Source: Flavobacterium piscisymbiosum (GTDB lineage Bacteria; Bacteroidota; Bacteroidia; Flavobacteriales; Flavobacteriaceae). Taken from it: a stretch of 64,000 nt of DNA. The notes below the pieces were generated by a model that had not been told where the DNA came from, made no database searches, and saw nothing but the letters and a program-made list of their open reading frames with translations. The stretch spans positions 4,092,001-4,156,000 of the forward strand of contig NZ_JAJJMM010000001.1 of the NCBI RefSeq assembly GCF_020905295.1. Direction: 5' to 3'. Shown here in pieces: positions 3,531 to 19,175 of the stretch; position 1 is the first letter of the stretch, and the number at the start of each line of letters is the position of its first letter. The position numbers and the translations under genes were made by a program.

Positions 3531-3558
3531 GAAATATACTTAGAATTATACACTATTC

Positions 3559-3575
3559 TTATTTAGAATAAATAA
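3559..3575. promoter_or_regulatory. Candidate Fur box upstream of the receptor gene
   Basis: Seventeen bases, TTATTTAGAATAAATAA, form a perfect 7-3-7 inverted repeat 29 nt upstream of the receptor start. The identical 17-mer occurs at 16146-16162 in front of the siderophore biosynthesis operon. On the minus strand a TTTG (-33-like) lies just upstream, so the palindrome would sit between the promoter boxes. Iron-dependent repression by Fur is the natural reading; the Fur motif of this genus was not computed. Confidence 0.55.
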
Positions 3576-3639
3576 GCGTTCAAAAGTATGAAATTATCTA
3601 TTAATAGTATCCATAAATTGCAAATAAAATATTAAAATT

Positions 3640-4731
3640 TTAATTTAGAACTTCTATAACTTTTGGTCTTTGGCTCTTTTTTCTTAAGAAATCTATAAGA
3701 ATCTGAACCGAAAAGGTCAATATAATATAAAGTACAATAAGGGCTAATACAGTGGTTATTCCATTTTCTCTAAAACCGAAAATACCTTTACCCCAGGAAA
3801 TCAGGATCCATTGTGTCATATACATTGTCGTCAGGTTTTTACTGCAGTATTTTAAAAGTTTTACAAATTTATTTTCTTTGATATTGATGGATATTTTAAA
3901 AATAACCCAAAGAAAAATCAATGTCCAGCCTGCAAAGTAAATAACACCGCCAGGGCCCATGTGGTAAAAACCATTATAGTTATAAGCTCCGTAAATAAAA
4001 ACCAAAGGAGCGCCCAGAGCAACGAACAAAAATCCGGTAAACACCATGTTTTTAAACAATTGAGGTCTATCGTAATCAAGTTCCTGATACCATTTGCCAA
4101 AAAACATTCCGATGATAATAAAGGACATCCACGGAAAAACAGGAAAATAAACGTATGCCGGAAAATCATTATTGAAAATAAGATCCAACACATAATTAAC
4201 TACAGGAAAATCAATATTGATTCCGCTGACTTCTCTGGAAACTAATGCTATTAGTATTCCTATGGCTAAAATTCCATATTTATTCGTGACATATTTTCGA
4301 ATAAAACCAATGAACAGCAAAGACATTCCTGCTAATTGAAGAATATCACCCAATAACATCAAATACAAATATTGTTGTTCTATTGGCCCGTGCCATCCAT
4401 ATCTTTGTATAAAATTATGTGGTGCAAAGCCAAATATTACAGGAAAAACGAACTTTAAAAAATTCATTAAAAGTGCTGCAGCCAGAAGCAACACGCCGCG
4501 CGTTAGAGAACTTTTAAGGCTTTGATGACGAGAGGTCATAAATGTTATTCCCATGCAGATTAGAAAGATGGAAGTTCCTCTGCCTAAAAAAAGAATAAAA
4601 GCACCAATAAAGGTTTCTGACTGAGATTTAACATCTGCAAATGTCAGCAGTGTATGTATGATTATCATTCCTATAACACTCATTCCTTTTATCAAATCGA
4701 GTGCTGCAATTCTTTTACTTTGCTGTTCCAT
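3640..4731 (-). CDS. DUF1624/HGSNAT-like membrane acyltransferase family protein
   Basis: A 363-residue integral membrane protein with about ten hydrophobic helices. The N-terminus has the RIAALDLIKGMSVIGMIIIH pattern typical of DUF1624 (heparan-alpha-glucosaminide N-acetyltransferase catalytic region) and related acyltransferase families: a D-x-x-(K/R)-G turn followed by a membrane-embedded His (His26). Such proteins move acetyl or acyl groups across the membrane. The gene is on the same strand as the siderophore genes, but a 241-nt spacer holding a dispersed repeat separates it from the adenylating enzyme, so co-transcription is uncertain. Acylation of the siderophore during maturation or export is an inference from location; the residues alone do not define the acceptor. 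Confidence 0.72.
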   Translation of the reverse strand: MEQQSKRIAALDLIKGMSVIGMIIIHTLLTFADVKSQSETFIGAFILFLGRGTSIFLICMGITFMTSRHQSLKSSLTRGVLLLAAALLMNFLKFVFPVIFGFAPHNFIQRYGWHGPIEQQYLYLMLLGDILQLAGMSLLFIGFIRKYVTNKYGILAIGILIALVSREVSGINIDFPVVNYVLDLIFNNDFPAYVYFPVFPWMSFIIIGMFFGKWYQELDYDRPQLFKNMVFTGFLFVALGAPLVFIYGAYNYNGFYHMGPGGVIYFAGWTLIFLWVIFKISINIKENKFVKLLKYCSKNLTTMYMTQWILISWGKGIFGFRENGITTVLALIVLYIILTFSVQILIDFLRKKSQRPKVIEVLN

Positions 4732-4972: not shown

Positions 4973-6388
4973 TTACCCTGCAACTGTTTTTGCGGCTGTA
5001 AATGAATTTTCGTTTTCGTTGATATGCTTGTTTATAGCAGGATAATCTACTTTACCGTTAACAGTCAGCGGTACTTGATCGAAATAATAGTTTTTTACTG
5101 AACTGGCATGCAATCCTAGTTTTTCCTTTATTACCTGTGTTATGGTTTCACGCAGCAAAGCGGCATCCTGATGTATAACTCCCAGATATTTATCCTGAAC
5201 ACTTATACAGATAAAGGTTTGTCCTCCTAATTCATTTTTTAGAAAAACTTCGACTTCATCTAGGTTTAAACGAACTCCGAATAGTTTTATAATACGTTTA
5301 ATGCGTCCCTTAATATGATAATAACCCAATTCATCTTTTTCTGCAAGATCACCTGTATAAAGTTTATCGGTATGGTTGTAATGCTGCAAATCAAAAATAT
5401 TGTTTGCATAACCTCCTGAAACATTTGGCCCGTAATAAATAAGCTCTCTTGTGTTTTCATCAATTTCAAACCTTCCGTTTTTTACAGGAAAACCTATAGA
5501 TGTTCCTTTAGTTTGGAAATCTTTTGGTGGTAAAAAAGCCATTCTGCCGCTGGCTTCGGTTTGTCCGTATTGCGCAAAAAACTGTTTATCATACATATAG
5601 GTGTAATTTGAAATAACGTTTGCCAGCTCTTTATTCAGCATTCCTCCCGTGTGGGTCAAATAACGTAAAGTAGGAGTGTCTTTTTTAAAGAAACCAAAAC
5701 GATGCAGTAATTCATAAAAATAAGGAACTCCGCTCAGTGTAGAGTAGCCATAATGAGCAAGATCTGACCAAAATTCTTTTTGAAGTACATCTTTGTCAGT
5801 ACATACAATTGTATTTGCTTTGATGCAATTGGTTGTAAAAATCGAAAAACCATACACAAAATTGATAGGTACATTTAACGGAACAACATCGTGTTCCGTT
5901 ATTGGCATGTACTCCATGATAGATAAAGCGTTTTGAACCAGATTGTGATCTGAAATCTTAACAAATTTAGGTGACCCAGTAGTTCCTGATGTACTCATTA
6001 AAAGTTTAATATCACCATGAATGGGGTAGTGGCGAATTTCTTTTCTTTTAAAAACCGAAATGCTTTTAGACGCCTGCTTTACATCATAACCTTCAACTTC
6101 AATCCTTGCGGGATCGTAGATATAAGCAGGCATGTATTCATTTTCCAGGTTTTGTTTAAACTTTTCATGTAAATCTGTATTCAGCAATGCTACTGTGTAC
6201 TTTTTTTGATAAAAATTCAAAAACGTTTCAATTGCCGGCAGCTGATTGTCATTATAAATAAAAACAACGGCACGCAAATCTTCAATATCTAAAGATTCAT
6301 GTAAATCGGTAAACGTTTTAACAACTTTGGTTTTTGCATCTATAAAATTTAATTTTTTATTTTTTTTAATTAAATCATAAAGTCCCAT
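4973..6388 (-). CDS. Free-standing AMP-forming acyl/aminoacyl ligase
   Basis: A member of the ANL superfamily that would activate a carboxylic acid as its adenylate and load it on a thiol. The phosphate-binding motif STSGTTGSPK is near residue 135. Further motifs are YGQTEASGRM (A5-like), YTGDLAEKDELGYYHIKGR (A7/A8 hinge) and a C-terminal NGKVD lysine region (A10-like). There is no condensation or carrier domain, and a separate carrier protein gene lies directly upstream. The start at 6388 (MGLYDLI) follows a purine-rich stretch 16 nt after the carrier gene; a longer frame from 6421 would overlap that gene by 17 nt. The probable role is loading an acyl or amino acid onto the carrier for siderophore decoration; the substrate cannot be read from the sequence. 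Confidence 0.84.
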   Translation of the reverse strand: MGLYDLIKKNKKLNFIDAKTKVVKTFTDLHESLDIEDLRAVVFIYNDNQLPAIETFLNFYQKKYTVALLNTDLHEKFKQNLENEYMPAYIYDPARIEVEGYDVKQASKSISVFKRKEIRHYPIHGDIKLLMSTSGTTGSPKFVKISDHNLVQNALSIMEYMPITEHDVVPLNVPINFVYGFSIFTTNCIKANTIVCTDKDVLQKEFWSDLAHYGYSTLSGVPYFYELLHRFGFFKKDTPTLRYLTHTGGMLNKELANVISNYTYMYDKQFFAQYGQTEASGRMAFLPPKDFQTKGTSIGFPVKNGRFEIDENTRELIYYGPNVSGGYANNIFDLQHYNHTDKLYTGDLAEKDELGYYHIKGRIKRIIKLFGVRLNLDEVEVFLKNELGGQTFICISVQDKYLGVIHQDAALLRETITQVIKEKLGLHASSVKNYYFDQVPLTVNGKVDYPAINKHINENENSFTAAKTVAG

Positions 6389-6404
6389 AGTTTCTTCTTT
6401 TGAA

Positions 6405-6647
6405 TTATTGGATTTCAACACCGTTTTTTTTCAATATTGCTTTTATTTTATCGATGTTTCCCATTTCCAGAATATCTTCCATAGAAATTGAAACATTATA
6501 AAATTTCTCCAGCTCATCAACCAAAAGTAAATGACTCATAGAATCCCATTCTACAATACCCTGATATTCTAAATCTGCTGTAATAGATTCTACTGGTATT
6601 TCAAACGCAGTCGCAAATACCTGATGTAATTCTTGTGTTGTGCTCAT
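6405..6647 (-). CDS. Acyl carrier protein
   Basis: An 80-residue acidic, four-helix carrier protein. The phosphopantetheine attachment serine lies in VEWDSMSHLLLVDELE (about residue 36), the canonical D-S-(M/L) context at the start of helix II. It stands immediately before the adenylating enzyme, so the pair probably forms a two-component activation and carrier module. It is unlike the housekeeping fatty-acid ACP, which has DSLD and is coded with fab genes. Its presence in a siderophore operon of the NRPS-independent type is unusual, because those synthetases use free or CoA-linked substrates. Confidence 0.87.
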   Translation of the reverse strand: MSTTQELHQVFATAFEIPVESITADLEYQGIVEWDSMSHLLLVDELEKFYNVSISMEDILEMGNIDKIKAILKKNGVEIQ

Positions 6648-6710
6648 AATAATCTTGTTTTAATTTGTTTATGTTAATTTGTTTTTAATGTGTTGGGTTT
6701 AATTATTTTA

Positions 6711-6845
6711 AACACATAGAAACATAGATTTTTGTTTTATAAAAAAGATAATTGAAAGAAACCAGTTTCTCACACATAGCTATATGAATTAAGTAAAAGT
6801 GAAACGCCTTTTCTCAAGTCAAAAAAAACTATGTTTCTATGTGTT
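6711..6845. repeat. Long inverted repeat inside the siderophore gene row
   Basis: A 17-nt arm AACACATAGAAACATAG (6711-6727) is perfectly complementary to 6829-6845. Between the arms is an element with GAAACCAGTTTC and AAGTGAAACGCC that recurs at 25307-25372. The structure lies in the 219-nt gap between the MATE and carrier protein genes, where it could act as a transcript-processing or attenuating stem-loop or separate two transcription units. Confidence 0.68.
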
Positions 6846-6866
6846 AAAAATTTATACTATTTAATT

Positions 6867-8273
6867 TTAAACTTTAGTTAATTTCCATTTTCCTGTTCTA
6901 AATATGGTAATACAGCCAAAAGCCAGTACCAGTTCTGAAATTAATATGGCTGCAAAAATGCCTTTTGGACCAAAACCCAATGCTACTCCAAAGACATAGG
7001 AAAGTGGTATTTGTATCACATAAAACATAAGGATGTAGAGCAGGGTTACAATCATTACTTTTCCGGCAGCATTAAGTGCTCTGGAAATAACCATTGTGTA
7101 ACCTAATAATACATAGGCAATAGAAATAATGTGAATGTAAGTTGTACTATTATCGACAACTTCGGGCACATCAGAAAAGATTCTGACAACGGGATCTGCT
7201 ATAAAAATCCATCCTATTGCCACCGAAATCAAAAAGCACATATTGATCATGCCTGCCCGCCAAACTGATTTTTCGGCTCTATCGGGCTGTTGAGCGCCCA
7301 AATTTTGTCCGGTTAAAATTCCTGCAGCATTGCCAATACCCCAAGCCGGAGTAGTGGCGATAGAAGCAACTCGTTGCGCTATTATATATCCTGCGAGTGC
7401 ATTGCCTCCAAAATGAGAAACAATTTTGATCATAAACAGCCAGCTCGATGCAGGAATTAAATACTGCAGCATGCCTCCAAAAGCAAGTCTCAATACTTTA
7501 TTAAAAGTTTCGCGGTGAAGTGCCAGCTGTTGTTTACCAATTTGAATAATGGTTGTTCCTTTAATTAAATGGAATGCCTGATAACTGAGTCCTATAAAAC
7601 GGGCTAGAGCGGTAGCGATACCAACTCCTAAAAGTCCGTAGGCAGGAACAGGACCCCACCCAAAAATAAGCAGCGGACACAGAAGTATGTTTAATATATT
7701 AGACAGCCAAAGTGTGCGCATTGCCATAGAAGCATAACCGGCACCTCGAAAAATACCATTTAGCGCAATACGGATAATAATAAAACCGCAGCTGGCAAAC
7801 ATTACTTTTGCATACAAACTGCCTTGTTTTATCATTTCTGGAGAAAGTCCTACGAGACTCAATATTTCATTACTCCATATAAAACAGATTAAGCTTATTA
7901 CAATACCGCAAATAACGCTTATATTTACTACTTGTCCTGCTGTAACGCTTGCTTCTTTAAAATTCTGCTCGCCAACGCGACGCGCAATTAAAGTCGAAGC
8001 GGCAATGCTTAAACCTATAGAAACCGAATAACAAAAACTGATAACAGACTCTGTAGAACCCACAATAGAAACTGCCGCTGCACCAAGTTTACTCACAAAA
8101 AACAAACTGGCACAAACAAAAACAGATTCCATTACAAGTTCTAAAACCATAGGAACGGCAAGCAATACGATGGCCCGATTGATACTGCCTGAAGTAAACT
8201 TTTTTTCGCGGCCTAATACCGCAGTAAGAAACAAATCACTATAAGATTGAAGCCTCAATACAACTACTTTCAT
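6867..8273 (-). CDS. MATE family efflux transporter (probable siderophore exporter)
   Basis: A 468-residue multidrug/toxic compound extrusion protein with twelve hydrophobic segments in two pseudo-symmetric halves. The N-terminal half begins NRAIVLLAVPMVLELVMESV, a typical MATE TM1, and the second half begins near residue 255. The start codon overlaps the stop of the preceding NIS synthetase gene by four bases (ATGA), which indicates translational coupling. MATE and MFS exporters commonly accompany NRPS-independent siderophore operons, so export of the finished iron-free siderophore is the likely function. Substrate specificity is inferred from the operon. Confidence 0.92.
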   Translation of the reverse strand: MKVVVLRLQSYSDLFLTAVLGREKKFTSGSINRAIVLLAVPMVLELVMESVFVCASLFFVSKLGAAAVSIVGSTESVISFCYSVSIGLSIAASTLIARRVGEQNFKEASVTAGQVVNISVICGIVISLICFIWSNEILSLVGLSPEMIKQGSLYAKVMFASCGFIIIRIALNGIFRGAGYASMAMRTLWLSNILNILLCPLLIFGWGPVPAYGLLGVGIATALARFIGLSYQAFHLIKGTTIIQIGKQQLALHRETFNKVLRLAFGGMLQYLIPASSWLFMIKIVSHFGGNALAGYIIAQRVASIATTPAWGIGNAAGILTGQNLGAQQPDRAEKSVWRAGMINMCFLISVAIGWIFIADPVVRIFSDVPEVVDNSTTYIHIISIAYVLLGYTMVISRALNAAGKVMIVTLLYILMFYVIQIPLSYVFGVALGFGPKGIFAAILISELVLAFGCITIFRTGKWKLTKV

Positions 8274-10123
8274 GATTGGTGTTGTATTGTTTCATTACTA
8301 ATGTCTATAAACTCGCTCATTTCATATTGCTTAATGACATAGAGTGGATTAGGAAGTTTGCTTCCTTTTTTGGGTACGGCAAAACCGGTCTGTTCTGCAT
8401 ATCCGTTATTAAGCAGTTTTAAACTGTTGATATAAAAACGTTTAAACTCCGGCTCAAAAAGATTGTATTTTTCAAAGCGGTCTGTTAAATGCGGATTATC
8501 CCGTTGGTATTCCTCAATTGAACCTATTACGGTTTTCCAAAAAAGATGTTCATCATAATCCATATGAGTATGTAAAATATCAGACAGATATCTGAAAAAT
8601 GCATCAAAAACGCCTATCAAAATAAACAAAGGTGTATTTTCTTTATTAGAGGATTGGATAAGACCGTCTTTAAGTTCAGCCGGTAATTTTGCTTTGGCTT
8701 CTTCTGTCAAGACTATATCATCAACAAAATCTTTAATAATAATACGCTGTGGTATTCCGTTTTTCATGACTAAAATAATATTCTCGCCATGAGGTGTTAC
8801 ACATAAAGAATGCTGATAGTAAATATGCAGCAAAGGCTTTAGGTAAACTTCCAGATATTGTTCCAGCCAGCGTTGCGTACTCAGCCCTGAAACGTTTATC
8901 AGTTCCTGCAGAAAAGGACGGTCGTTATCATCGATGTATAATAAAGACGCCATCGTCATTAGGTTTTCGTTAGGTTTGCGATATTTCTCGGCACTTTCCC
9001 TCCATAATGCGCCTAACATTTCACGATAATGATATGGACTGTCGGTTATGGAATTGTACTGCGGGTGACGATAAGAAACCGTAGCCACTTCGCCTAATAA
9101 CACGACTTCTTTCTCCTCAAAATAAGGATCTTTATCGAGCATTTCTTTAACCCATTTTGTTACCCTTGGCGCAATATCCATTTGTTTTGGAGATAAGCCG
9201 CGGATGTTTCCTGTGCTCAAAATAGATATTGCCGTTTTTACATAATGTTTGGAAGGATAACTTAAATTAAAGAAAGTTCGAATACTTTGCTGAGGCGAAT
9301 ATACATCGTCACTTTTGCCCAGAATAACTAAATATTGATTAGCAAGATCCTGATGAAATTGCAGCAAAATTTTATTGTTCAATTGCCAGGGATGTACGGG
9401 TATAAAAACATAATCTTCAACGATAAGTTTCATATCGCGAAGTTTTTCCTGAAATTTTTTATAAAGTTCAGCGCCTAATTCATCGGTGTAAAAATCATTA
9501 AAGTTGATCGTTTCCAAGGCATTAAATGCAGCTCTTTTTTTATGGGCTGCCAGCCAGTATAAATCCGTATTTTTATTGGCTTCGGGAGCATATTTGTGAT
9601 AATCACTATTGTTGAAACCAACGCGTCCTTTATTCGCAATTACCCACGGATGACCTTCCATTTGGTGCTCAATAGTCTGATAATCGGCTTGTGTAAGTTC
9701 AGAGGCGCTCAGCTTTTCCCTGGTATACAAATGAGCATCTGCATATAAGGTGTTGAGAAGTTCTTCGGTATATTTTGCCAGTGTAAAAGAATCTATTCCA
9801 AAGATTTTTTGTAATTCCATAAAAAAACAAAGAACATCTTTGGCAGGTGAGGCTGTGCCGTTTTCCCATCTTTGGATGCTTTCTTTTTCAATATGCCAAT
9901 ATTCTAAAAGTCTTGGATAAGCCGAAAAAGTATAGTGAACCTCCGGAAGATCAGTTGTTAGTTTAAAATGGGTAATACCCTCTTTTTCACTTCCTGTAAT
10001 TTCTGGTTTAGCAACATCTTCGTGCATTAATTCGGCTAAACTCTTGGCTAACAAATTGATATTTACTTTTTCCCAAACTGCAGCGGTAAAAACTTCTATG
10101 TGTGGTATTGTTTCTATATTCAT
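8270..10123 (-). CDS. IucA/IucC family NIS siderophore synthetase (DesD-like)
   Basis: An ATP-dependent synthetase of about 617 residues that condenses a carboxylate with an amine or hydroxamate. Signature segments are ANKGRVGFNNSDY, IPVHPWQLNNKI (active-site His), SPQQSIRTFFNLS and the VTPHGENI/IKDFVDDI portion of the FhuF-like C-terminal domain. The start at 10123 (MNIETIP) is chosen because the longer frame, from 10201, runs 65 nt into the preceding monooxygenase gene; the chosen start leaves a 13-nt gap. In the DesABCD scheme, DesD joins N-hydroxy-N-succinylcadaverine units into linear or macrocyclic hydroxamates, and this enzyme is the best DesD counterpart here. A second synthetase lies two genes upstream. 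Confidence 0.91.
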   Translation of the reverse strand: MNIETIPHIEVFTAAVWEKVNINLLAKSLAELMHEDVAKPEITGSEKEGITHFKLTTDLPEVHYTFSAYPRLLEYWHIEKESIQRWENGTASPAKDVLCFFMELQKIFGIDSFTLAKYTEELLNTLYADAHLYTREKLSASELTQADYQTIEHQMEGHPWVIANKGRVGFNNSDYHKYAPEANKNTDLYWLAAHKKRAAFNALETINFNDFYTDELGAELYKKFQEKLRDMKLIVEDYVFIPVHPWQLNNKILLQFHQDLANQYLVILGKSDDVYSPQQSIRTFFNLSYPSKHYVKTAISILSTGNIRGLSPKQMDIAPRVTKWVKEMLDKDPYFEEKEVVLLGEVATVSYRHPQYNSITDSPYHYREMLGALWRESAEKYRKPNENLMTMASLLYIDDNDRPFLQELINVSGLSTQRWLEQYLEVYLKPLLHIYYQHSLCVTPHGENIILVMKNGIPQRIIIKDFVDDIVLTEEAKAKLPAELKDGLIQSSNKENTPLFILIGVFDAFFRYLSDILHTHMDYDEHLFWKTVIGSIEEYQRDNPHLTDRFEKYNLFEPEFKRFYINSLKLLNNGYAEQTGFAVPKKGSKLPNPLYVIKQYEMSEFIDISNETIQHQS

Positions 10124-10136
10124 TTTAAGTTTGGTA

Positions 10137-11459
10137 TTAAATACTAATTTCCTCCGCTTTTTCTGCGACAATACCCGAGAGATCAAAATCCTGAAAAGCA
10201 ATTCTTTTTTCTAACTTATAGACTTCACGTTTCGCGACTTCATTAATGATATAGGAATTTCGATATGCACCCATGCCCAAATCAGATGAAATGTAGCTAT
10301 GTGTATGAATTTCTGCATTCTGCACAAAAATTTCGCTGCCGTTATGATCTATACTGTAGTTTCTTTTTACATCATAACTGCCAGTTGAAGTTCTGCTGAT
10401 GCGATGCTGTATGTCTTTAAGAAATTGAGGTTCCTGATAATGATATCCGGTGCCTAAAATTACATAGTCGGCATGCTCTGTAAACTTTTTCTGCTGTTCG
10501 ATCTGCTCCAGATGCAATTCGTAATTATGGTGAATTCCCGCCGTTATATCATCCAATTGTATGTTGGGTCTGATTTTTACACCAATATCTTCATTATCTA
10601 CACTAAGGGTATACAGATGATCATAAATCTGATTGAGTAAATCAAAGTTTACTCCTTTAAATTGTGATTTCTGGCGATCCAGCATGACACTTCGAGTCGA
10701 AGAAGGCATTTGATGAAAATAATCGATGTAATCCGGAGATGTATGCTCCAGAACAAGCTTGGAATATTCCATTGCAAAAAAACGATCCGGACGGGAATAC
10801 CAATTCAGTTTTAAGTTTTTAGGTCTGTTTTGAAGCAGATCAAAGAATACTTCGGCCGCACTTTGCCCAGAACCAATTACAGTAACCGTATCCTGTTCTA
10901 ATATTTCCTCTTTTCTGAATAAATAACTCGAGGTATGGCAAACCTTTTTCATTTCTTTAAGATCGACAAACTCAGGAAGTACAGGTACTGTACCCGTTCC
11001 TAATACTAATTTTTCGCAATAGTAAATTTTAGTTTGATCTTGATCTTTGTGAAATACGTGCAATTCATAAAGACCGTCTTTATAATAAATTTCCTTTACA
11101 CTAGAGGAGAAGCGGCAGTTTTTGAGCTGTTTGATTACCCATTGACAGTATAGATTATACTCTTTACGCAGTACAAAGAAATTTTCGCGGATAAAAAATT
11201 TATACAATCGATCGGTCTTTTTAAGAAAATTTAAAAAACTAAACTGACTTTTAGGATCTGCCATTGAAACACAGTCGCATAAAAATGGAGTCTGCAATGT
11301 AACATGGTCAATAAGCAACCCGGGATGCCAGTTGAATTGCTCTTTTTGATCAAAAAAAAGTGATGAAACGTCATCAACTGATTCTAACAAAGCAGCTAAG
11401 CCTAAATTGAAAGGTCCAATTCCGATTCCTATTAGTGAATATATTTTACGATCTTCCAT
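10137..11459 (-). CDS. Lysine/ornithine/cadaverine N-monooxygenase (DesB/IucD-like)
   Basis: A 440-residue class B flavin monooxygenase that N-hydroxylates a terminal amine, the first step towards hydroxamate iron ligands. The FAD-binding motif is GIGIGPFNLGLAAL at residues 11-24, followed by the family motif HPGLLIDHVTLQTPFLCD. The NADPH-binding motif VIGSGQSAAEV is near residue 195, and the C-terminal family motif ILGTGYHYQEP is present. It begins one base after the stop of the fused synthetase gene. As a decarboxylase is encoded upstream, cadaverine or a hydroxycadaverine is a more likely substrate than lysine; this is inferred from pathway logic. Confidence 0.93.
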   Translation of the reverse strand: MEDRKIYSLIGIGIGPFNLGLAALLESVDDVSSLFFDQKEQFNWHPGLLIDHVTLQTPFLCDCVSMADPKSQFSFLNFLKKTDRLYKFFIRENFFVLRKEYNLYCQWVIKQLKNCRFSSSVKEIYYKDGLYELHVFHKDQDQTKIYYCEKLVLGTGTVPVLPEFVDLKEMKKVCHTSSYLFRKEEILEQDTVTVIGSGQSAAEVFFDLLQNRPKNLKLNWYSRPDRFFAMEYSKLVLEHTSPDYIDYFHQMPSSTRSVMLDRQKSQFKGVNFDLLNQIYDHLYTLSVDNEDIGVKIRPNIQLDDITAGIHHNYELHLEQIEQQKKFTEHADYVILGTGYHYQEPQFLKDIQHRISRTSTGSYDVKRNYSIDHNGSEIFVQNAEIHTHSYISSDLGMGAYRNSYIINEVAKREVYKLEKRIAFQDFDLSGIVAEKAEEISI

Positions 11460-11460
11460 A

Positions 11461-13917
11461 TTATTGGTTTATAAGATTAGGTTCTGCTTCAGCATTTATT
11501 ACAATGTCTTGGTTTTGAGGAAATTTAGCCCAGTACCATTCGCGATAGCAAAAATTAAGATTGGAGGTTTTGTGCGGCATTTCAATAACTTTTTCGATTT
11601 TAAAGCCATGAAATGCTTTGTTCATCATCGAAGCTCTGGAATCGACAGCGCCTTCACCAACCATTTTACCCACTTCGGGTTGAGCAAATACATAATCGAT
11701 CATGCATTGTGTAGCAGGTGAAACAAATTTCAGTTTAGGATCTGTTGGCGCAATAAATTGATGTGTTCCGTAATCAGTAGGCAGCACATCATAATAATCT
11801 CCCAATACATCGCGGGTAGGCCAATAAACTTCAATATTAAAAGTAGGTTCCCCGTTAGCCATTCCTATATAACTGTACAAACCATCTCCTGGAAGCAGGA
11901 TTCTGTAATAGGTTTCAAGTTCGCGCAGAGGCCAGTCCATTTTCCAAGCTGCTTTTGCGTGGTCACGATGAAACCATTCGTGCAGCATTTCCAGGTCATT
12001 ATCTATATCAAGAGGGCGTAAACTTATAGTAACATCTTCTTTAGGGAAATAACGATTGTAGACTAATTCTTTTCCTTTTGGATTTATCAATTGCTCTGAA
12101 AAAAAGCGTTTGTGTAAAACATTTGGAAAATTAATGCGGGTAACGCCAGCAGGATTACCACCGCAGTCAATATCATTGAGTGCCGTAAGTAAATTGCCTT
12201 TTACTTTCCAATATCTGCTTTCGAGAATAAACGTTACCAGACCGCTTTCGTCTTCTTTTTGTAAAACTTCTAAGGCATCATAAAGAATGTTTAAGAGATT
12301 TTTTTCATCTGCAAGTCCGTTGGCGCCAAAAGTATTTACAACGGCTAATATATTTCCTACCCAGAAATAATGAAGCAGTAAATTGAATAAACGATCGTCT
12401 GGTATAAACATTTTTCCGTTTTCAGAGAAACCGGGTACGATAGCATTTAATTGCTCTTCAAAAGATTTTCGGAATAAAAAACTTTGATTATCACGGAAAA
12501 ATAATTTTTCAGGCATGAACGCTCCATTCAATTGTACAAGTGTATTTTGCTGATGCCACTCGCAAACCATTCCCTGTTCATTAAACATTTTTACTACGCT
12601 GTTAAGTATAATCTCAATGTATTTTTTGAACCAAAGCTCACTGGTTTTTTCTATAGATAATCCCGTTTGTTCAGAAGCTTTTTGAATGATGTTCTTCATT
12701 CTGGAAGGATCTCCCAATATGCTGTCCTGACATAAAGAAGCTAATAGACTAACATTATTTTCTTTTTCGGTTCCAGTACTTTTAAACGGATTGTATCGTA
12801 CACTGGTAGAAAAACTATCCAGTACATTTCCGTTATAAGATACTGATATGAAACCCGGATCACAAATCAATTCAATATCAGGATATGTTTTTCTTACATT
12901 GTCTCCCCAGGCAGTCTGCATTAATCGTGATACATCATAACCTCTGTAAAGTTCATGGTAATGATTAATACGTTCTGCCCCTGTAATTTTAACATGAAGC
13001 GAAAATTTATACATATAATCACTTTCGTTATTGTATACGGTTCTTACCGAAGAAGTTGCTGTAAATTCTTTACCGAATACACCTAAATCGATAAGCAGAT
13101 TTTCTTTTACCAGTGTATCAAATACGACTTGGTTTTTAAAATGTGAAGCTTCCCACGGATGAACCGGAAGTATTTTCCACTGCGGATATTTTTCCAGTAA
13201 ATCGTGCAGATTTTTATCTTCTTTACCTGCTTCTAATACTGTTGCTTTTGCAAAATCAGAAGGCAAAACGTCGTCTACCGATTTTTCGGTAACCAAATCA
13301 GGATGCACTAAAAAATAATGCAGCTTAAAATATCCGCCGGTTTCGGGAGCATATTTTAAAACTTCAGCTTCCGTAAATCCTTCACGTCCTTTGGTAAGAG
13401 GGTGCAGTAAATGCCCAGCCGGAAATAATTGTTCTGCTTCAATAAAAGTCATTTCAGCTTTATTAAAATCCTGCCCGGAAGTTTTAAAATGTTCTAAAAA
13501 CTGCGCTATTTTTTCGGTGCTCAGCTGCATTCTTTTTTTTACATTTTTAGAATCAGCCAAGGGATACTGCTGTCTTATATGGGTTGTAATTAGTTCCAGA
13601 AGACGATCTGCATCTATTTCTTTTATGGTTTCAGTACTAAGGTCACGTTCCATTACCGGAAAATCATATAAATGTCTGAAAGTTTCAGATCTGTAGCGTA
13701 CAGGTGCATAGACTTCAACGTTATCAACAGGAAAATCTAATTTTAGATGAAGCTTATGATCATACTTTGACATATAAGATTTCAGCACAGGATCGTATTT
13801 AGGAACCCCTTCATAAAAACTGCTGTTACCTAATTCGCGCACGCAGCAGTTAAGTAAAATACTAAATGTAATATGGACTGCTTCCTGAGCAATCTCTTTA
13901 GGAGAAGATGTAGTCAT
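11461..13917 (-). CDS. NIS synthetase fused to GNAT acyltransferase (DesD-DesC-like fusion)
   Basis: An 818-residue two-enzyme fusion. The first 600 residues are an IucA/IucC synthetase: LTKGREGFTEAE, LPVHPWEASHF (active-site His), TATSSVRTVYN and a FhuF-like C-terminal part. Residues about 635-805 form an AlcB/IucB/DesC-type N-acyltransferase with LRPLDIDNDLEMLHEWFHRD, AWKMDWPLRELETYY and GEGAVDSRASMMNKAFHGF. The acyltransferase would acylate the N-hydroxylated diamine with succinyl- or acetyl-CoA, making the hydroxamate that the synthetase part, or the second synthetase, then condenses. The start overlaps the decarboxylase stop by 20 nt. Fused versions of this kind occur in Bacteroidota; Streptomyces and gamma-proteobacteria usually have separate proteins. 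Confidence 0.92.
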   Translation of the reverse strand: MTTSSPKEIAQEAVHITFSILLNCCVRELGNSSFYEGVPKYDPVLKSYMSKYDHKLHLKLDFPVDNVEVYAPVRYRSETFRHLYDFPVMERDLSTETIKEIDADRLLELITTHIRQQYPLADSKNVKKRMQLSTEKIAQFLEHFKTSGQDFNKAEMTFIEAEQLFPAGHLLHPLTKGREGFTEAEVLKYAPETGGYFKLHYFLVHPDLVTEKSVDDVLPSDFAKATVLEAGKEDKNLHDLLEKYPQWKILPVHPWEASHFKNQVVFDTLVKENLLIDLGVFGKEFTATSSVRTVYNNESDYMYKFSLHVKITGAERINHYHELYRGYDVSRLMQTAWGDNVRKTYPDIELICDPGFISVSYNGNVLDSFSTSVRYNPFKSTGTEKENNVSLLASLCQDSILGDPSRMKNIIQKASEQTGLSIEKTSELWFKKYIEIILNSVVKMFNEQGMVCEWHQQNTLVQLNGAFMPEKLFFRDNQSFLFRKSFEEQLNAIVPGFSENGKMFIPDDRLFNLLLHYFWVGNILAVVNTFGANGLADEKNLLNILYDALEVLQKEDESGLVTFILESRYWKVKGNLLTALNDIDCGGNPAGVTRINFPNVLHKRFFSEQLINPKGKELVYNRYFPKEDVTISLRPLDIDNDLEMLHEWFHRDHAKAAWKMDWPLRELETYYRILLPGDGLYSYIGMANGEPTFNIEVYWPTRDVLGDYYDVLPTDYGTHQFIAPTDPKLKFVSPATQCMIDYVFAQPEVGKMVGEGAVDSRASMMNKAFHGFKIEKVIEMPHKTSNLNFCYREWYWAKFPQNQDIVINAEAEPNLINQ

Positions 13918-15415
13918 TTCCGTGTTTTTTTATGATTGAAAGGATATTATTAATGTGTGCAATAGTCGTTAATGGGTTCAAAATGGTGAACTTTAGGTAA
14001 AAAATGCCATTTACTTTTGTGCTTGCCACTAAAACTTCGCCATTAAAAAACATTTTCTTTTTGATATGTAAATTCATTTTACAAGTGTCTCCCGGCCAGC
14101 CGTCTAGTTTATATCTAAAAACCAAAACGCTTAAATCAGAATCTGTTAAAAGTTCAAAATCTTTGTCGTTGTCTATAATTTCAGCAGTTTGCTGCGTAGT
14201 TTCGATAATGGTTTCCGTATACTGTCCCAGTTTGGTTCTTCCCATGTGGCGCAGTGTACACCATAACTTTAAAGCATCAAAACGGCGTGTACTTTGTACC
14301 AGAGACTTGTTAATTTGAGCCGGAAGTTCATCATAATCCTGCTCCTTAGGATTTAGATAATCGGCGTGGTGTTTTATAATATGAAGATGCTGTTTGTTTC
14401 TCACCATAAAAGCACTGCTGCAGATAGGCTGAAAGAAAGATTTATGGTAATCAATCGTAACAGAATCAGCTTGTTCGATACCGTTTAGAAGATGTTTGTA
14501 TTTATCTGTCAGCAGTAATCCGCATCCATAAGCAGCGTCAACATGCATCCATAATTCATATTTTTTTGCCAGAATTGCAATTTCAGATAATGGATCAATA
14601 TTTCCGAAATCGGTTGTACCGGCTGTAGCCACAATAGCAATAGGAATGTTGCCTTTTTCCAGCTCTTCAGTAATGGCTTGCTGTAATTTTTCAGCATCCA
14701 TTCTATATCGGTTATCTGTAACAACCTGAACGATAGACTGCTCGCCAAGTCCTAAAATAGAAGCATTTTTTTGATTACTGAAATGAGATTTCTCAGAAAC
14801 AAAAATTCTGAACTTACTGGCTTCCGGAGGGCATCCATTTAATTTGATATTCCAATTCAGGAATTTCAAAGCAAAATAATCTCTTGCCAAAAGCAGTCCC
14901 ATAAGGTTACTCTGCGAGCCGCCGCCTGTAAAAATACCATCGCAATCGGCATTATATCCAATTTGTTCACCCGTCCAGGCAATCAATTTTCTTTCTATAA
15001 ATGTTCCTCCGGCACTTTGATCATACGTATCCTGCGACGAATTAATTGCACTTATCAGTACATCTGCGGCCAAAGCAGGAATCACGACAGGGCAGTTTAA
15101 ATGAGCTATATATTCTGGTAAATGATAGGCAGTTGCATGATTGACATAAATTTCATCAATCTCATTCCAAAGACTTTCATAATCCTGAAGCGGCACATCT
15201 AAGTTTACAGCTTCTACTTTATTTCTTATTTCCTCAGGTTTAATACCACTGAACGGAATTTTAGTATTTTCAAGAAAACCATTTACGCGTTTTTGCACTA
15301 ATGCTATTGCATTGTTGTATTCTGCGCCAGAATTTTCATGAAAAATATCCTGATAAAAATCGTCAGTAGAACTTTTAACTAAGACATCCTGATCGTTGTC
15401 TAATAGGTTTTGCAT
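13898..15415 (-). CDS. PLP-dependent diamine-forming decarboxylase (DesA-like)
   Basis: A 505-residue group II decarboxylase. The PLP-binding lysine is Lys325 in IDYHKSFFQP, preceded by the HVDAAYGCGLLL strand whose Asp contacts the pyridine nitrogen; TGGGSQSNLMGLLLARD is the phosphate-binding region. Relatives decarboxylate 2,4-diaminobutyrate, lysine or aromatic amino acids. In siderophore operons this type (DesA, AlcA-associated) makes cadaverine from lysine. Because a lysine-hydroxylase-like oxygenase is coded divergently, hydroxylysine is a plausible alternative substrate giving an amino-alcohol diamine. It is 24 nt downstream of the nitroreductase gene and overlaps the fusion gene, so it is part of one operon. 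Confidence 0.9.
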   Translation of the reverse strand: MQNLLDNDQDVLVKSSTDDFYQDIFHENSGAEYNNAIALVQKRVNGFLENTKIPFSGIKPEEIRNKVEAVNLDVPLQDYESLWNEIDEIYVNHATAYHLPEYIAHLNCPVVIPALAADVLISAINSSQDTYDQSAGGTFIERKLIAWTGEQIGYNADCDGIFTGGGSQSNLMGLLLARDYFALKFLNWNIKLNGCPPEASKFRIFVSEKSHFSNQKNASILGLGEQSIVQVVTDNRYRMDAEKLQQAITEELEKGNIPIAIVATAGTTDFGNIDPLSEIAILAKKYELWMHVDAAYGCGLLLTDKYKHLLNGIEQADSVTIDYHKSFFQPICSSAFMVRNKQHLHIIKHHADYLNPKEQDYDELPAQINKSLVQSTRRFDALKLWCTLRHMGRTKLGQYTETIIETTQQTAEIIDNDKDFELLTDSDLSVLVFRYKLDGWPGDTCKMNLHIKKKMFFNGEVLVASTKVNGIFYLKFTILNPLTTIAHINNILSIIKKHGNDYIFS

Positions 15416-15439
15416 AATGATTAGTTTTTAAAATTTGGG

Positions 15440-16075
15440 TTATTTAAAATAAGTTACTTTGTTAGAAACAGGGGTTCTCTTTTTTTTCGAGGGTTCAAGA
15501 TCCTCAGGATAATATCCAACATAAATTAAACCGAGAGATTGTTCATTTTCGGCCAGGTCAAATTGCTTTAAATAATCAATTGCACCGGCAGATGTACTCC
15601 AGTAGCTCCCAATATTGTGGGCAGTGCAGGTGAGTGCGATGTTTTGAACGGCAGATGAAACGGCGGCAACTTCTTCCCATTCCGGAAGGTTTATTTTGAG
15701 ATTTCGAACCATTACGACTCCAATAATACAGGCCGAATTAAGAGGATATTCTTTAAGTAGATTGTACTTTTCGATAGCTTCTTCAGCAGAAAATTTTTGA
15801 GAATAGAAGTCTTTGTAATAGTCTGCCAGAAAGGATCCTAGTTGATCTAAATAATTATCCTGTAAAATAATAAACCTCCATGGTTCGGTCATTTTATGCG
15901 TAGGTGCATAAGTTGCGTTTGTTAAAATTTCATTTAATAATTCATCCGGTATGTTTTGCTTAAAAAATTCATCAGCATAAACACTTCGTCTGGTCCGGAT
16001 GATTTTTGAAATTTTATTTTCTCTATACGTAAAATCTGATGTCTTGATTTTACTGGGTTTAGTGCTAATATTCAT
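15440..16075 (-). CDS. Nitroreductase-family flavoprotein, first gene of the siderophore operon
   Basis: A 211-residue FMN-dependent nitroreductase-fold protein: IIRTRRSVYADEFF at the N-terminus (the family's R-R-S-x-R type motif), NATYAPTHKMTEPWRF near residue 55, and AVQNIALTCTAHNIGSYWST near 140. Members reduce nitro groups, quinones or flavins with NAD(P)H. In this position it could supply reduced flavin or act as a ferric-siderophore or nitroso-group reductase, but there is no direct evidence for either. It is the promoter-proximal gene, 71 nt from the candidate Fur box, and probably shares the operon promoter. Confidence 0.84.
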   Translation of the reverse strand: MNISTKPSKIKTSDFTYRENKISKIIRTRRSVYADEFFKQNIPDELLNEILTNATYAPTHKMTEPWRFIILQDNYLDQLGSFLADYYKDFYSQKFSAEEAIEKYNLLKEYPLNSACIIGVVMVRNLKINLPEWEEVAAVSSAVQNIALTCTAHNIGSYWSTSAGAIDYLKQFDLAENEQSLGLIYVGYYPEDLEPSKKKRTPVSNKVTYFK

Positions 16076-16123
16076 ATTTTTTTAAAAAATTATTTAAGAA
16101 AATTCTTTTTTTAAATGATAAAA

Positions 16124-16135
16124 CAAATATATTTG
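16124..16135. promoter_or_regulatory. Symmetric -7 promoter box for divergent siderophore transcripts
   Basis: CAAATATATTTG is a perfect 12-bp palindrome. It reads TATATTTG on both strands and so satisfies the Bacteroidota TAnnTTTG -7 consensus in either direction. The nearest -33 TTTG is not clear on the minus strand. The neighbouring palindrome at 16146-16162 would overlap the -33 area of the leftward promoter. Confidence 0.4.
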
Positions 16136-16145
16136 TAAGTAGATT

Positions 16146-16162
16146 TTATTTAGAATAAATAA
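16146..16162. promoter_or_regulatory. Candidate Fur box of the biosynthesis operon and the divergent oxygenase
   Basis: This is the same TTATTTAGAATAAATAA palindrome as at 3559-3575, base for base, 71 nt upstream of the nitroreductase start and 186 nt upstream of the divergent oxygenase. Finding one 17-mer only at the uptake and biosynthesis promoters of one siderophore locus points to a shared iron-responsive repressor. Confidence 0.57.
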
Positions 16163-16347
16163 AAACAGTGCAAGCAAATGTAGAAATTAATCTTTATAAA
16201 AAAAATAAAACAGAAAAAATATTATACGAAATTCTCTACATTTCAAAAATGTATCAGAACAATGTTTTATTTGTATATGGTTTAGTTGTAGTAGTTTGTG
16301 TTTTTTATTTGTCCCCAATTTTTATTAACTATTAAATAAACTAATAA

Positions 16348-17460
16348 ATGAAATCACAATCATTAATTGAAGATGAAATACCAGTAAAAGAAAATTATGC
16401 TTATCAGATTCCTACAAGCCCGCTGATAGTAGAGATTACGCCTCAGGAAAGAAATATTTTATCTAATGTGGGCTCACTTTTAGAGAAAGCATTTCAGAGC
16501 TATGAAAATCCAGATTATATAGAGGCGCTTCATTTTTATTCTTTTCAGCTTCTTCCGGAACGAATAGCCAGAATCTTAAGCCGTTTTGGAACAGATTTCT
16601 CTGCTGACCAGTACGGAGCCATCATTTTTAGAGGACTTCTTGAAGTAGATCAGGATCATCTGGGACCGACGCCCGCTAACTGGCAGAGTGCCGATTATTC
16701 AAAACTCAATAAATACGGCTTTATTTGTTCGCTGCTGCATGGAGCAGTTCCTTCGAAACCTGTCCAGTATTATGCGCAGCGAAAAGGCGGAGGAATTCTG
16801 CATGCCGTTATTCCTGATGAAAATATGGTTGCTACGCAAACAGGGTCAGGGTCAAAAACAAATCTGTATGTTCATACTGAAGATGCGTTTTTGCTGCATC
16901 AGGCAGATTTTTTAAGCTTTCTTTATTTGCGAAATGAAGAGAGAGTTCCTTCAACACTTTACTCGGTGCGATCACATGGCGGGGTTAATACGGTAATGGA
17001 AAAACTTTTTGATCCTATTTATCAATGTCCTAAAGATGCCAATTATGATGAAGAAACAAGTAACGGCCCGCTGGCTTCTGTTTTATATGGAAATAAAGAA
17101 CTGCCTTTTATTAGATTTGATGCGGCAGAACAGATATTTAATGAAAAAGCAGGACAAACGCCTGAAGCGCTGTACAATTTAACTGAATTCTGGAACGAGG
17201 CTAAAGAGTTAATTAATAGTGATTATACACCAGATTCCGGAGACGTTATATTTGTTAACAATCATTTATGTGCCCATGGAAGAAGTGCTTTTACGGCAGG
17301 GCAGAGGGAAGAGAATGGTAAGATTGTAAAGTGCGAGAGACGACAGATGCTAAGAATGATGAGTAAAACCAGTCTAATTCATATAAGGTCGATGACGCAC
17401 ACAAATGATCCGTATTTTGTTATGGAAGAACATTTAGGGAAAGTTTTTGATCAGGATTAA
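16348..17460 (+). CDS. Clavaminate-synthase-like Fe(II)/2-oxoglutarate lysine hydroxylase candidate
   Basis: A 370-residue oxygenase of the clavaminate synthase/VioC-like group. The iron facial triad is His176-x-Glu178 (NLYVHTEDAF) and His310 (NNHLCAHGRSAF). The HxE form, in place of HxD, is typical of this group, and an Arg-rich stretch CERRQMLRMM follows for 2-oxoglutarate binding. Length and motifs match the free L-lysine 3- or 4-hydroxylases (KDO/K4H) described from Flavobacterium johnsoniae and Chitinophaga. The gene is divergent from the siderophore operon across a shared control region and is followed by a lysine-permease-like gene. It probably hydroxylates free lysine at C4 before decarboxylation. 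Arginine or asparagine hydroxylation is possible but less consistent with the neighbours. Confidence 0.85.
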   Translation: MKSQSLIEDEIPVKENYAYQIPTSPLIVEITPQERNILSNVGSLLEKAFQSYENPDYIEALHFYSFQLLPERIARILSRFGTDFSADQYGAIIFRGLLEVDQDHLGPTPANWQSADYSKLNKYGFICSLLHGAVPSKPVQYYAQRKGGGILHAVIPDENMVATQTGSGSKTNLYVHTEDAFLLHQADFLSFLYLRNEERVPSTLYSVRSHGGVNTVMEKLFDPIYQCPKDANYDEETSNGPLASVLYGNKELPFIRFDAAEQIFNEKAGQTPEALYNLTEFWNEAKELINSDYTPDSGDVIFVNNHLCAHGRSAFTAGQREENGKIVKCERRQMLRMMSKTSLIHIRSMTHTNDPYFVMEEHLGKVFDQD

Positions 17461-17481
17461 GTAGTAAGACTGAATTAAAGG

Positions 17482-17516
17482 AGAGATGTCAAAGTGTTTT
17501 TGATGTCTCTTTTTGT
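17482..17516 (+). terminator. Rho-independent terminator of the oxygenase gene
   Basis: AGAGATGTCAAA pairs with TTTGATGTCTCT through ten Watson-Crick and two G-U pairs around a short loop, followed by TTTTTG. It starts 22 nt after the stop codon. Confidence 0.7.
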
Positions 17517-17747
17517 TTCAGGTCAATACGAACTTTTAAGTTTTAAACTATTGATTTATAGTTTTTTAAAAGGATATAGCTTGTTTTTTTAGATCATTTT
17601 ATACAAGATGTAAATAAGTTTGTATATTAAAAATCATTAATGAATATCCCTTATAGTATAACGCATGCTTTGTGCGATTCCTTTTTTAACTTATCTTCGC
17701 TCTTTATACACTTGTGAGTGCATTTAACTCCTTTAAAAATCTAATTT

Positions 17748-19175
17748 GTGAAAATAAAACAGGAAGACGTACAAGATAATCAGCTTAAACGTGGGCTGAC
17801 TAACCGCCACATTCAGTTAATTGCTTTAGGCGGATCAATAGGAACAGGTCTTTTCCTTGGCATTGGTCCAGCGGCTGTATTAGCAGGGCCATCTGTTATT
17901 TTAGGATATGCTATTGCCGGAATTATCGCTTTTTTTATCATGAGACAACTTGGCGAAATGGTTGTCGAAGAACCTGTATCAGGAAGCTTTAGTCATTTTG
18001 CTTATAAATATTGCGGTTCTTTTGCCGGTTTTGCATCAGGTTGGAATTATTGGATTTTATATATTTTAGTCAGTATGGCTGAACTTACAGCTATTGGTGT
18101 TTATGTGCAGTTTTGGTGGCCTGAAGTTCCGCTGTGGGCATCCAGTTTATTTTTCTTTCTGGTTATTAATGCTTTGAATTTTGCCTCTGTAAAAGTTTAC
18201 GGAGAAACAGAATTTTGGTTTTCAATCATAAAAGTTGTCGCAATTATTGCCATGATTCTCTTTGGTACTTACTTGCTAATAAGTGGAACAGGAGGAGAAC
18301 ACGCTACAATTCATAATTTATACAATGATGGAGGTTTCTTTCCAAAAGGGTTCTTTGAAAAAACTGCAACCGGTGATTTTCAGGGTTTACTATCAGCAAT
18401 GGCGCTAATTATGTTTTCCTTTGGCGGTTTAGAACTCATTGGAATTACCGCTGCTGAGGCAGAAAACCCGGAGAAAAACATTCCAAAAGCAACCAATCAG
18501 GTTATTTACAGAATCCTTATTTTTTATGTTGGTGCATTGGTCATTTTATTTGCTTTATCACCATGGAGACAAATTACGACAGATAGTAGTCCGTTTGTAA
18601 TGGTTTTTCAAAATTTAAACGGAATGGAATTTGAGTTGTTTGGCCGCAAAATATTTTTTACAAGCCTTATTGCCAATGTGCTTAATTTAATTGTATTAAC
18701 CGCAGCTTTATCCGTATATAATAGTAGTGTTTATAGTAATTCACGTATGTTATATGGTTTAGCAGATCAGGGCAATGCGCCTAAATTTTTAATGAAGCTG
18801 AACAAACAATCGGTACCTATTAATGCCATTTTAATTTCTTCATGTTTTGCCGCTATTTGTATTTTAATAAATAAAATAATGCCAAAAGAGGCTTTTAGTA
18901 TTTTAATGTCTTTAGTGGTTTCTTGTTTGGTGATTAACTGGGTTATGATTTCGTATACGCATCTGCAATTTAGACGTTCGAAAGACAGGGAAAACATAAA
19001 AACGAAGTTTGCTTCATTATTTTATCCCGTAAGTAATTATATCTGTTTTGTATTTTTATTGGGTATTTTATCCGTAATGTGGATCACTAATATGAAGTTA
19101 TCCGTAGAATTAATTCCTATTTGGCTGGGTATTCTTTTTGCGTGTTATAAAGTTTTAAAAACAAAAAAGGAGTAG
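17748..19175 (+). CDS. APC-family amino acid permease, LysP-like
   Basis: A 475-residue amino acid transporter with twelve membrane helices. The first helix carries GGSIGTGLFLGIG, the AAT-family substrate-binding loop, and helix 3 follows EPVSGSFSHFAYKYCG. The start is a GTG at 17748, supported by homology of the region RGLTNRHIQLIALGG. Close families take up lysine, aromatic amino acids, proline or asparagine. Next to a candidate lysine hydroxylase and a DesA-like decarboxylase, lysine import for siderophore synthesis is the sensible guess. A terminator separates it from the oxygenase gene, so it probably has its own promoter in the preceding 230 nt. Confidence 0.84.
   Translation: MKIKQEDVQDNQLKRGLTNRHIQLIALGGSIGTGLFLGIGPAAVLAGPSVILGYAIAGIIAFFIMRQLGEMVVEEPVSGSFSHFAYKYCGSFAGFASGWNYWILYILVSMAELTAIGVYVQFWWPEVPLWASSLFFFLVINALNFASVKVYGETEFWFSIIKVVAIIAMILFGTYLLISGTGGEHATIHNLYNDGGFFPKGFFEKTATGDFQGLLSAMALIMFSFGGLELIGITAAEAENPEKNIPKATNQVIYRILIFYVGALVILFALSPWRQITTDSSPFVMVFQNLNGMEFELFGRKIFFTSLIANVLNLIVLTAALSVYNSSVYSNSRMLYGLADQGNAPKFLMKLNKQSVPINAILISSCFAAICILINKIMPKEAFSILMSLVVSCLVINWVMISYTHLQFRRSKDRENIKTKFASLFYPVSNYICFVFLLGILSVMWITNMKLSVELIPIWLGILFACYKVLKTKKE

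Follow-up and report, generated by a model that had tools for sequence, protein, structure and literature searches.

A KDO-type lysine hydroxylase gene beside a predicted citrate–hydroxycadaverine siderophore operon in Flavobacterium piscisymbiosum

What is a gene for a lysine hydroxylase doing beside a set of siderophore genes? We addressed this question at a locus in a 64,000-nucleotide stretch (the window; coordinates below are window positions) of the 6.49-Mb, two-contig genome of Flavobacterium piscisymbiosum. Here a gene for an iron- and 2-oxoglutarate-dependent (Fe/2OG) oxygenase is transcribed away from a minus-strand operon, with a probable iron box between the two. From position 16075 downward, the minus strand encodes a nitroreductase, a pyridoxal phosphate (PLP) decarboxylase, a nonribosomal-peptide-synthetase-independent siderophore (NIS) synthetase with a fused GNAT domain, an N-monooxygenase, a second NIS synthetase, a MATE exporter, an AMP-forming ligase, an HGSNAT-type acyltransferase and a TonB receptor (Table 1). 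An earlier note on this DNA had recognized the DesA-like decarboxylase, the N-monooxygenase, the two NIS synthetases and the divergent, HxE-type, lysine-hydroxylase-like oxygenase, all of which hold. Within and beyond its span it had left out the nitroreductase, the MATE exporter, the ligase (which starts at its first position, 4973), the HGSNAT-type acyltransferase and the TonB receptor. Gene content and order, like the conservation, pocket residues and box described below, were observed directly. We consider it likely that the locus is an iron-regulated cluster for a chryseochelin-type siderophore, assembled from citrate and hydroxycadaverine whatever the acyl group.

The best solved match of the oxygenase is the L-lysine 4-hydroxylase KDO5 (6euo), with 677 bits end to end and 293 of 370 residues identical (79%); the second best, an arginine beta-hydroxylase, scores 80 bits. 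The similarity to KDO5 is full-length, and the 2-His-1-Glu iron site and Arg145, which is linked to C4 selectivity, are both present. PMC6224419 and PMC11066847 name 18 positions of the pocket that we scored, and the window enzyme retains every one of them. The alignment has 28 rows including the window, of which 27 are readable (the row of locus L014 is unreadable past codon 19); 16 of the positions are invariant across these 27, and S167 is Ala in two rows (L074 and L076). The nearest named hydroxylase relatives of the window are from Flavobacterium. By its sequence the window oxygenase is a predicted L-lysine 4-hydroxylase of the KDO family. KDO5 yields (4R)-4-hydroxylysine (PMC6224419), and the earlier note's statement that Flavobacterium has free lysine 4-hydroxylases of this kind is borne out by that paper and the match to 6euo.

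A separate observation concerns F. psychroterrae (L014, also G505; 10001 onward), in which, as read here, an in-frame stop lies near codon 20 of the hydroxylase gene; the operon is present there.

The hydroxylase gene and the siderophore operon occur together across two genera. One scan gave 25 named hydroxylase loci, 17 from Flavobacterium (one recorded as [Flexibacter]) and eight from Chryseobacterium; 24 of them are testable, having a long enough flank (L016 begins ~200 bases from the hydroxylase). The decarboxylase, synthetase–GNAT fusion, monooxygenase, second synthetase and MATE exporter are divergent from the hydroxylase in all 24. A strong match to the AMP-ligase (50–91% identity) lies 8.9–10.5 kb from the hydroxylase in all 24 genomes, with 7 of the 24 matches flagged for an internal stop. 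The nitroreductase is matched in 16/16 testable Flavobacterium loci and in 0/8 Chryseobacterium loci.

Counts over whole genomes agree. Among 299 Flavobacterium genomes (window included), 22 carry the hydroxylase and 40 the NIS synthetase domain PF04183, and all 22 fall within the 40; a synthetase lies ≤9 kb from the hydroxylase in 21 of the 22, the exception being on separate contigs. Among 148 Chryseobacterium genomes the hydroxylase is found in 55 and PF04183 in 78, the overlap is 55/55, and both synthetases lie ≤8 kb away; the 23 synthetase genomes without a hydroxylase have a single PF04183 gene in 21 cases, two in one and three in one. Hypergeometric values for the co-occurrence are 1e-22 (Flavobacterium) and 2e-22 (Chryseobacterium), computed, like the counts, without regard to shared ancestry. 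For both genera together, synthetases are present in 77/77 hydroxylase genomes, nearby on one contig in 76, over a range of hydroxylase identity of 59–95%. The hydroxylase is rare in wider samples (3/299 family, 6/385 phylum and 26/376 order genomes, the window counted in each). Because 22/22 and 55/55 hydroxylase genomes carry NIS synthetases, nearly all of them close by, the pairing is not due to chance.

The class of product was assessed from the synthetases and the gene order. In the first protein, the synthetase portion scores 163 bits to IucA, 53 to AcsD and 28 to DesD; a 103-bit match to DfoC covers the GNAT part. The acyltransferase of the earlier note is present as a GNAT domain (PF13523, residues 637–780) fused to this synthetase, and not as a separate gene. 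In a tree of 14 proteins, the first synthetase groups, on a long branch, with a protein in the RhbC position of a Sinorhizobium meliloti pSymA stretch (100/100 support), and the second clusters with the copies from Chryseobacterium and from other Flavobacterium (97/97). The pSymA stretch (L116) is presumed to hold the rhizobactin 1021 genes rhbBCDEF, its record having no gene table. It follows the window in gene order: decarboxylase, IucA-type synthetase, GNAT protein, monooxygenase, type C synthetase. A search of another pSymA stretch (L114) for rhizobactin genes gave no match. The window also has the type A (IucA-like) and type C synthetases, N-monooxygenase and acyltransferase that a citrate NIS dihydroxamate cluster requires. 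Since the first synthetase is of IucA/RhbC type and the genes are arranged as in the rhizobactin region, a citrate dihydroxamate is predicted, and these two features support this product class well. The synthetases are not solely of the DesD/DfoC clade, as those of a DesABCD cluster would be. A desferrioxamine or bisucaberin product was rejected, synthetase type and gene order being contrary to it.

The shared candidate Fur site noted earlier between hydroxylase and operon, TTTATTTAGAATAAATAAA, stood up to examination. It recurs at ≤2 mismatches in 24/24 testable related intergenic regions, with a consensus drawn from some of those loci; by comparison, ≤2 mismatches were reached in 5 out of 2000 Markov-resampled versions of the window's intergenic region. 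In genome G506 the box has 3 mismatches and in G321 it has 4. The window genome contains six sites at ≤1 mismatch, and the other five all precede TonB plug-domain proteins, of which the whole genome has 106 matches. Among the 29 genome sites at ≤2 mismatches, at least ten precede TonB receptors (one of them within the window, at 3558–3576) and one a Fur-family gene, the neighbours having been chosen for scanning by eye and several sites lying inside genes. At ≤3 mismatches there are 159 sites against 100 for a reversed-pattern control, and since the first count is not far above the second, these weak sites are mostly noise. The box is common to other iron-uptake genes of the genome, as membership of a Fur regulon requires. 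We regard TTTATTTAGAATAAATAAA as a probable iron (Fur) box serving both the hydroxylase and the operon, and infer iron control of the locus.

A siderophore with the expected diamine is known. Chryseochelin A (C24H36N4O15; measured m/z 621.22385), from three Chryseobacterium strains, consists by nuclear magnetic resonance and tandem mass spectrometry of citrate and two 3-hydroxycadaverines, each carrying an N-hydroxyl and a fumaric acid acyl group (Rehm et al., 2023; PMC9989332). By mass spectrometry, chryseochelin B has one arm ester-bound to citrate through the cadaverine hydroxyl, and chryseochelin C differs from B by a fatty acid on its free amine; the purified siderophore retarded the growth of Ralstonia solanacearum, a plant pathogen, when iron was low (PMC9989332). 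Its authors describe the pathway as still to be proved, and biosynthetic genes are named neither in the part of PMC9989332 available nor among the literature matches listed. The hydroxyl of the chryseochelin diamine sits on the central carbon, corresponding to C4 of lysine, and 3-hydroxycadaverine is decarboxylated 4-hydroxylysine. In the producer genus, a lysine 4-hydroxylase stands beside siderophore genes in 55 of the 148 genomes. Chryseobacterium genomes have an orthologous cluster, and three stretches read whole (L080–L082) contain what such a pathway would need: the hydroxylase and decarboxylase, both synthetases (the first a fusion), the monooxygenase, the MATE exporter, the ligase, the TonB receptor and also a PepSY-type neighbour (TonB and PepSY domains verified in L080). 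Both the association and the known chryseochelin structure make hydroxycadaverine a well-supported candidate building block.

The acyl group is approached through the ligase. The nearest solved match of the window's AMP-ligase, at a weak 79 bits, is an oxalate-CoA ligase, likewise a dicarboxylate enzyme. Fumaryl-CoA is not known to be a common metabolite, and a dedicated fumarate-activating ligase is therefore to be expected. The AMP-ligase of the Chryseobacterium cluster could serve this function, and for the window's product fumarate is the leading candidate, one that we mildly favor. Identity of that product with chryseochelin A is plausible.

Each reaction in F. piscisymbiosum, together with the acyl group and the product, is predicted as follows. 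The KDO enzyme would hydroxylate free L-lysine at C4, and the PLP decarboxylase would convert the product to 3-hydroxycadaverine (1,5-diamino-3-pentanol), one amine of which would be N-hydroxylated by the flavin monooxygenase. The AMP-ligase would activate a small acid, most likely fumarate, for acylation of the hydroxylamine by the GNAT domain. The first arm would be joined to citrate by the IucA/RhbC-type synthetase and the second by the type C-like one; the MATE protein would export the siderophore and the TonB receptor retrieve the ferric complex. The earlier note's path from lysine through 4-hydroxylysine and hydroxycadaverine to a hydroxamate siderophore thus survives, in agreement with the pocket residues, the co-occurrence and the 3-hydroxycadaverine of chryseochelin; its DesABCD/bisucaberin frame does not, given the IucA/RhbC-type synthetase and the rhizobactin gene order.

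Several observations weigh against this assignment. The protein in the RhbF position lies outside both type C groups of the tree, so that only the first synthetase, and not the second, argues for citrate. Pocket residue Tyr233 is Leu in all eight Chryseobacterium rows, His in two rows and Phe in L074 (G506); this residue has been linked to C4 selectivity by calculation, and the Tyr-Asp couple is apparently not conserved among lysine dioxygenases (PMC11066847). With Tyr233 replaced, sequence does not establish that the Chryseobacterium enzymes are selective for C4. On hydroxylysine, FjdA, a decarboxylase of F. johnsoniae whose gene was not seen in the passage, had a relative activity of 1.1% when coupled to a 3-hydroxylase (PMC9288024); the isomer there, the 3-hydroxylase product, is a different one. 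Chryseochelin strains CHR2/5/6 were typed by 16S only (PMC9989332), and need not carry the genes described here. Fumarate activation, argued from the chryseochelin structure and the weak oxalate-CoA ligase match, is plausible. The HGSNAT-type gene has a 91% match in L077 and a 43% match in a desferrioxamine-type cluster (L075), and none in the inspected Chryseobacterium or B-type Flavobacterium stretches; since the Chryseobacterium stretches showed no such gene, the window may encode a different product. Finally, two relatives, G480 (L070) and G556 (L071), keep the operon, nitroreductase, ligase and box and have no hydroxylase at the threshold used. The operon can therefore persist without the hydroxylase, and the decarboxylase may take lysine.

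Of the alternatives, the one to which we give appreciable, minority weight is a sub-case of the citrate–hydroxycadaverine assignment: the same scaffold with an acyl group other than fumaryl (acetyl, succinyl or another acid), giving a hydroxylated arthrobactin-like compound. The operon proteins of the window, B-type Flavobacterium and Chryseobacterium are 39–73% identical between versions, which leaves room for such a difference, as does the extra HGSNAT gene of the window. Set against this are the ligase that accompanies the cluster in 24/24 genomes and the lack of any ligase match in the desferrioxamine-type stretch L075, whose donor would by analogy be succinyl-CoA.

The earlier note proposed a hydroxylated chain or macrocycle of the desferrioxamine or bisucaberin kind, which is improbable for the window. 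The second synthetase does score best against DesD/DfoC/AlcC, and G506 (L074; G506:C82:213000-232900, 9241-14020) pairs a hydroxylase 64% identical to the window's with two DfoC-clade NIS synthetases. The window's second synthetase, however, is excluded from the group (100/100) that Pantoea DfoC forms with the synthetases of G553 and G506, its first is of IucA/RhbC type, of which the desferrioxamine-type stretches inspected (L075 and L115) showed no full copy, and its gene order matches the rhizobactin region. On the other side of the G506 hydroxylase are genes for a decarboxylase, a GNAT-only protein, a monooxygenase, a MATE exporter and an AMP-ligase; this locus is a candidate hydroxylated desferrioxamine-type cluster, and the earlier idea may be right there. 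That the hydroxylase is a mere neighbor with another role (e.g. hydroxylysine for a separate product), next to a siderophore made on plain cadaverine, would suit G480 and G556 and the early stop in F. psychroterrae, and is very unlikely in view of the 77/77 co-occurrence across widely divergent hydroxylases, the shared box and the existence of a 3-hydroxycadaverine siderophore in Chryseobacterium.

Variation among relatives raises a further idea. In L008 and L018 the hydroxylases are 92–93% identical to that of the window and the adjoining operon proteins 50–69%, a disparity that suggests operon exchange beside a constant hydroxylase. Reduced clusters in G378 (L072) and G557 (L073) consist only of the decarboxylase, the fused IucA-type synthetase, the monooxygenase and a distant MATE-like gene; a second synthetase or ligase was not seen in them. 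Tentatively, and with more doubt than belief, we suggest that KDO is a portable module adding a central hydroxyl to the diamines of differing siderophore lines (citrate dihydroxamates in the window and Chryseobacterium, desferrioxamine-type in G506), with the assembly operon exchanged beside it, and that the hydroxyl may itself be an acyl acceptor, which would explain the ester of chryseochelin B and the lipidated C forms.

The permease gene beside the hydroxylase, described earlier as LysP-like, scores 664 bits to AroP and 274 to PRK10836, which we take to be the LysP model. It was rejected as a member of the system, being AroP-like and having no match (E ≤ 1e-8) in the fetched flanks of the 25 related hydroxylase loci, and is probably not part of it.

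Table 1. Features of the siderophore locus and its surroundings (window positions); functions are predicted from the matches given.
Feature	Position	Strand	Basis
L-lysine 4-hydroxylase, KDO4/5 type; clavaminate-synthase-like Fe/2OG oxygenase, HxE-type	16348..17460	+	match to 6euo (KDO5); pocket residues kept
Probable iron (Fur) box, 19 bp, TTTATTTAGAATAAATAAA, between hydroxylase and operon	16145..16163	.	recurs in 24/24 testable loci (≤2 mismatches)
Nitroreductase-family flavoprotein, first gene of operon	15440..16075	-	PF00881
PLP decarboxylase, proposed 4-hydroxylysine (and lysine) decarboxylase	13898..15415	-	465 bits to 5o5c (desferrioxamine-biosynthesis decarboxylase); 47% identity to decarboxylase-like protein of Pantoea cluster
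IucA/RhbC-type NIS synthetase fused to GNAT N-acyltransferase	11461..13917	-	PF04183+PF06276+PF13523
Flavin diamine N-monooxygenase	10137..11459	-	best solved matches: 5o8p (desferrioxamine pathway) 409 bits, 6xbb 395, 7us3 (putrescine N-hydroxylase) 370
Type C-like NIS synthetase	8270..10201	-	434–444 bits to DesD/DfoC/AlcC chains, 281 to IucC
MATE exporter, probable siderophore export	6867..8273	-	PF01554; within operon in 24/24 testable loci
AMP-forming acyl ligase, proposed fumarate activation for hydroxamate	4973..6421	-	PF00501; weak oxalate-CoA ligase match
HGSNAT-type membrane acyltransferase, possible tailoring enzyme	3640..4731	-	PF07786
Second iron-box copy, ahead of TonB receptor	3558..3576	.	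2 mismatches
TonB-dependent receptor, probable ferric-siderophore receptor	1161..3530	-	PF07715/PF00593; box starts 28 bases upstream
AroP-like amino acid permease, neighbor of hydroxylase	17748..19175		AroP 664 bits

The main texts of PMC6224419, PMC11066847 and PMC12930750 contain the word "siderophore" 0 times, and the open-licence PMC matches listed include none that links a lysine hydroxylase to a siderophore cluster. PMC12930750 names Chitinophaga pinensis and Niastella koreensis as sources of lysine hydroxylases and cites work on production of 3-hydroxycadaverine in an engineered host, in which an F. johnsoniae lysine hydroxylase was used. The locus offers KDO4/5 hydroxylases a testable native role and supplies candidate genes for the chryseochelins. 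The Zaparucha group (Baud, in 2017) reportedly coupled KDOs to decarboxylases for cascades, and the gene neighborhood may have been noted there. Relatives with the operon and no hydroxylase, and the one with a hydroxylase beside another synthetase type (G506), are natural controls.

Among known systems, the desferrioxamine and bisucaberin clusters (DfoJAC, DesABCD) share a related decarboxylase and diamine N-monooxygenase with the window, and differ in having synthetases of another clade and, in L075 and L115, no IucA-type synthetase. The presumed rhizobactin 1021 region on pSymA has the window's series from decarboxylase to type C synthetase, but its stretch gave no hydroxylase or AMP-ligase match and its GNAT gene is separate where that of the window is fused; rhizobactin 1021 is diaminopropane-based. 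Alcaligin, a macrocyclic hydroxamate siderophore, likewise contains a C-hydroxylated diamine such as we predict for the window, but the diamine is hydroxyputrescine and the hydroxylase is AlcE. With KDO4/KDO5 (6euo; PMC6224419) the window enzyme shares 79% identity and the iron-, 2-oxoglutarate- and lysine-binding residues; those enzymes are treated as structures or biocatalysts in PMC6224419, PMC11066847 and PMC12930750. Closest in predicted product are chryseochelins A–C (PMC9989332), with citrate, two N-hydroxy-3-hydroxycadaverines and an activated small acid; they are known as chemistry, whereas the window carries a Flavobacterium gene cluster, which has nitroreductase and HGSNAT genes in addition.

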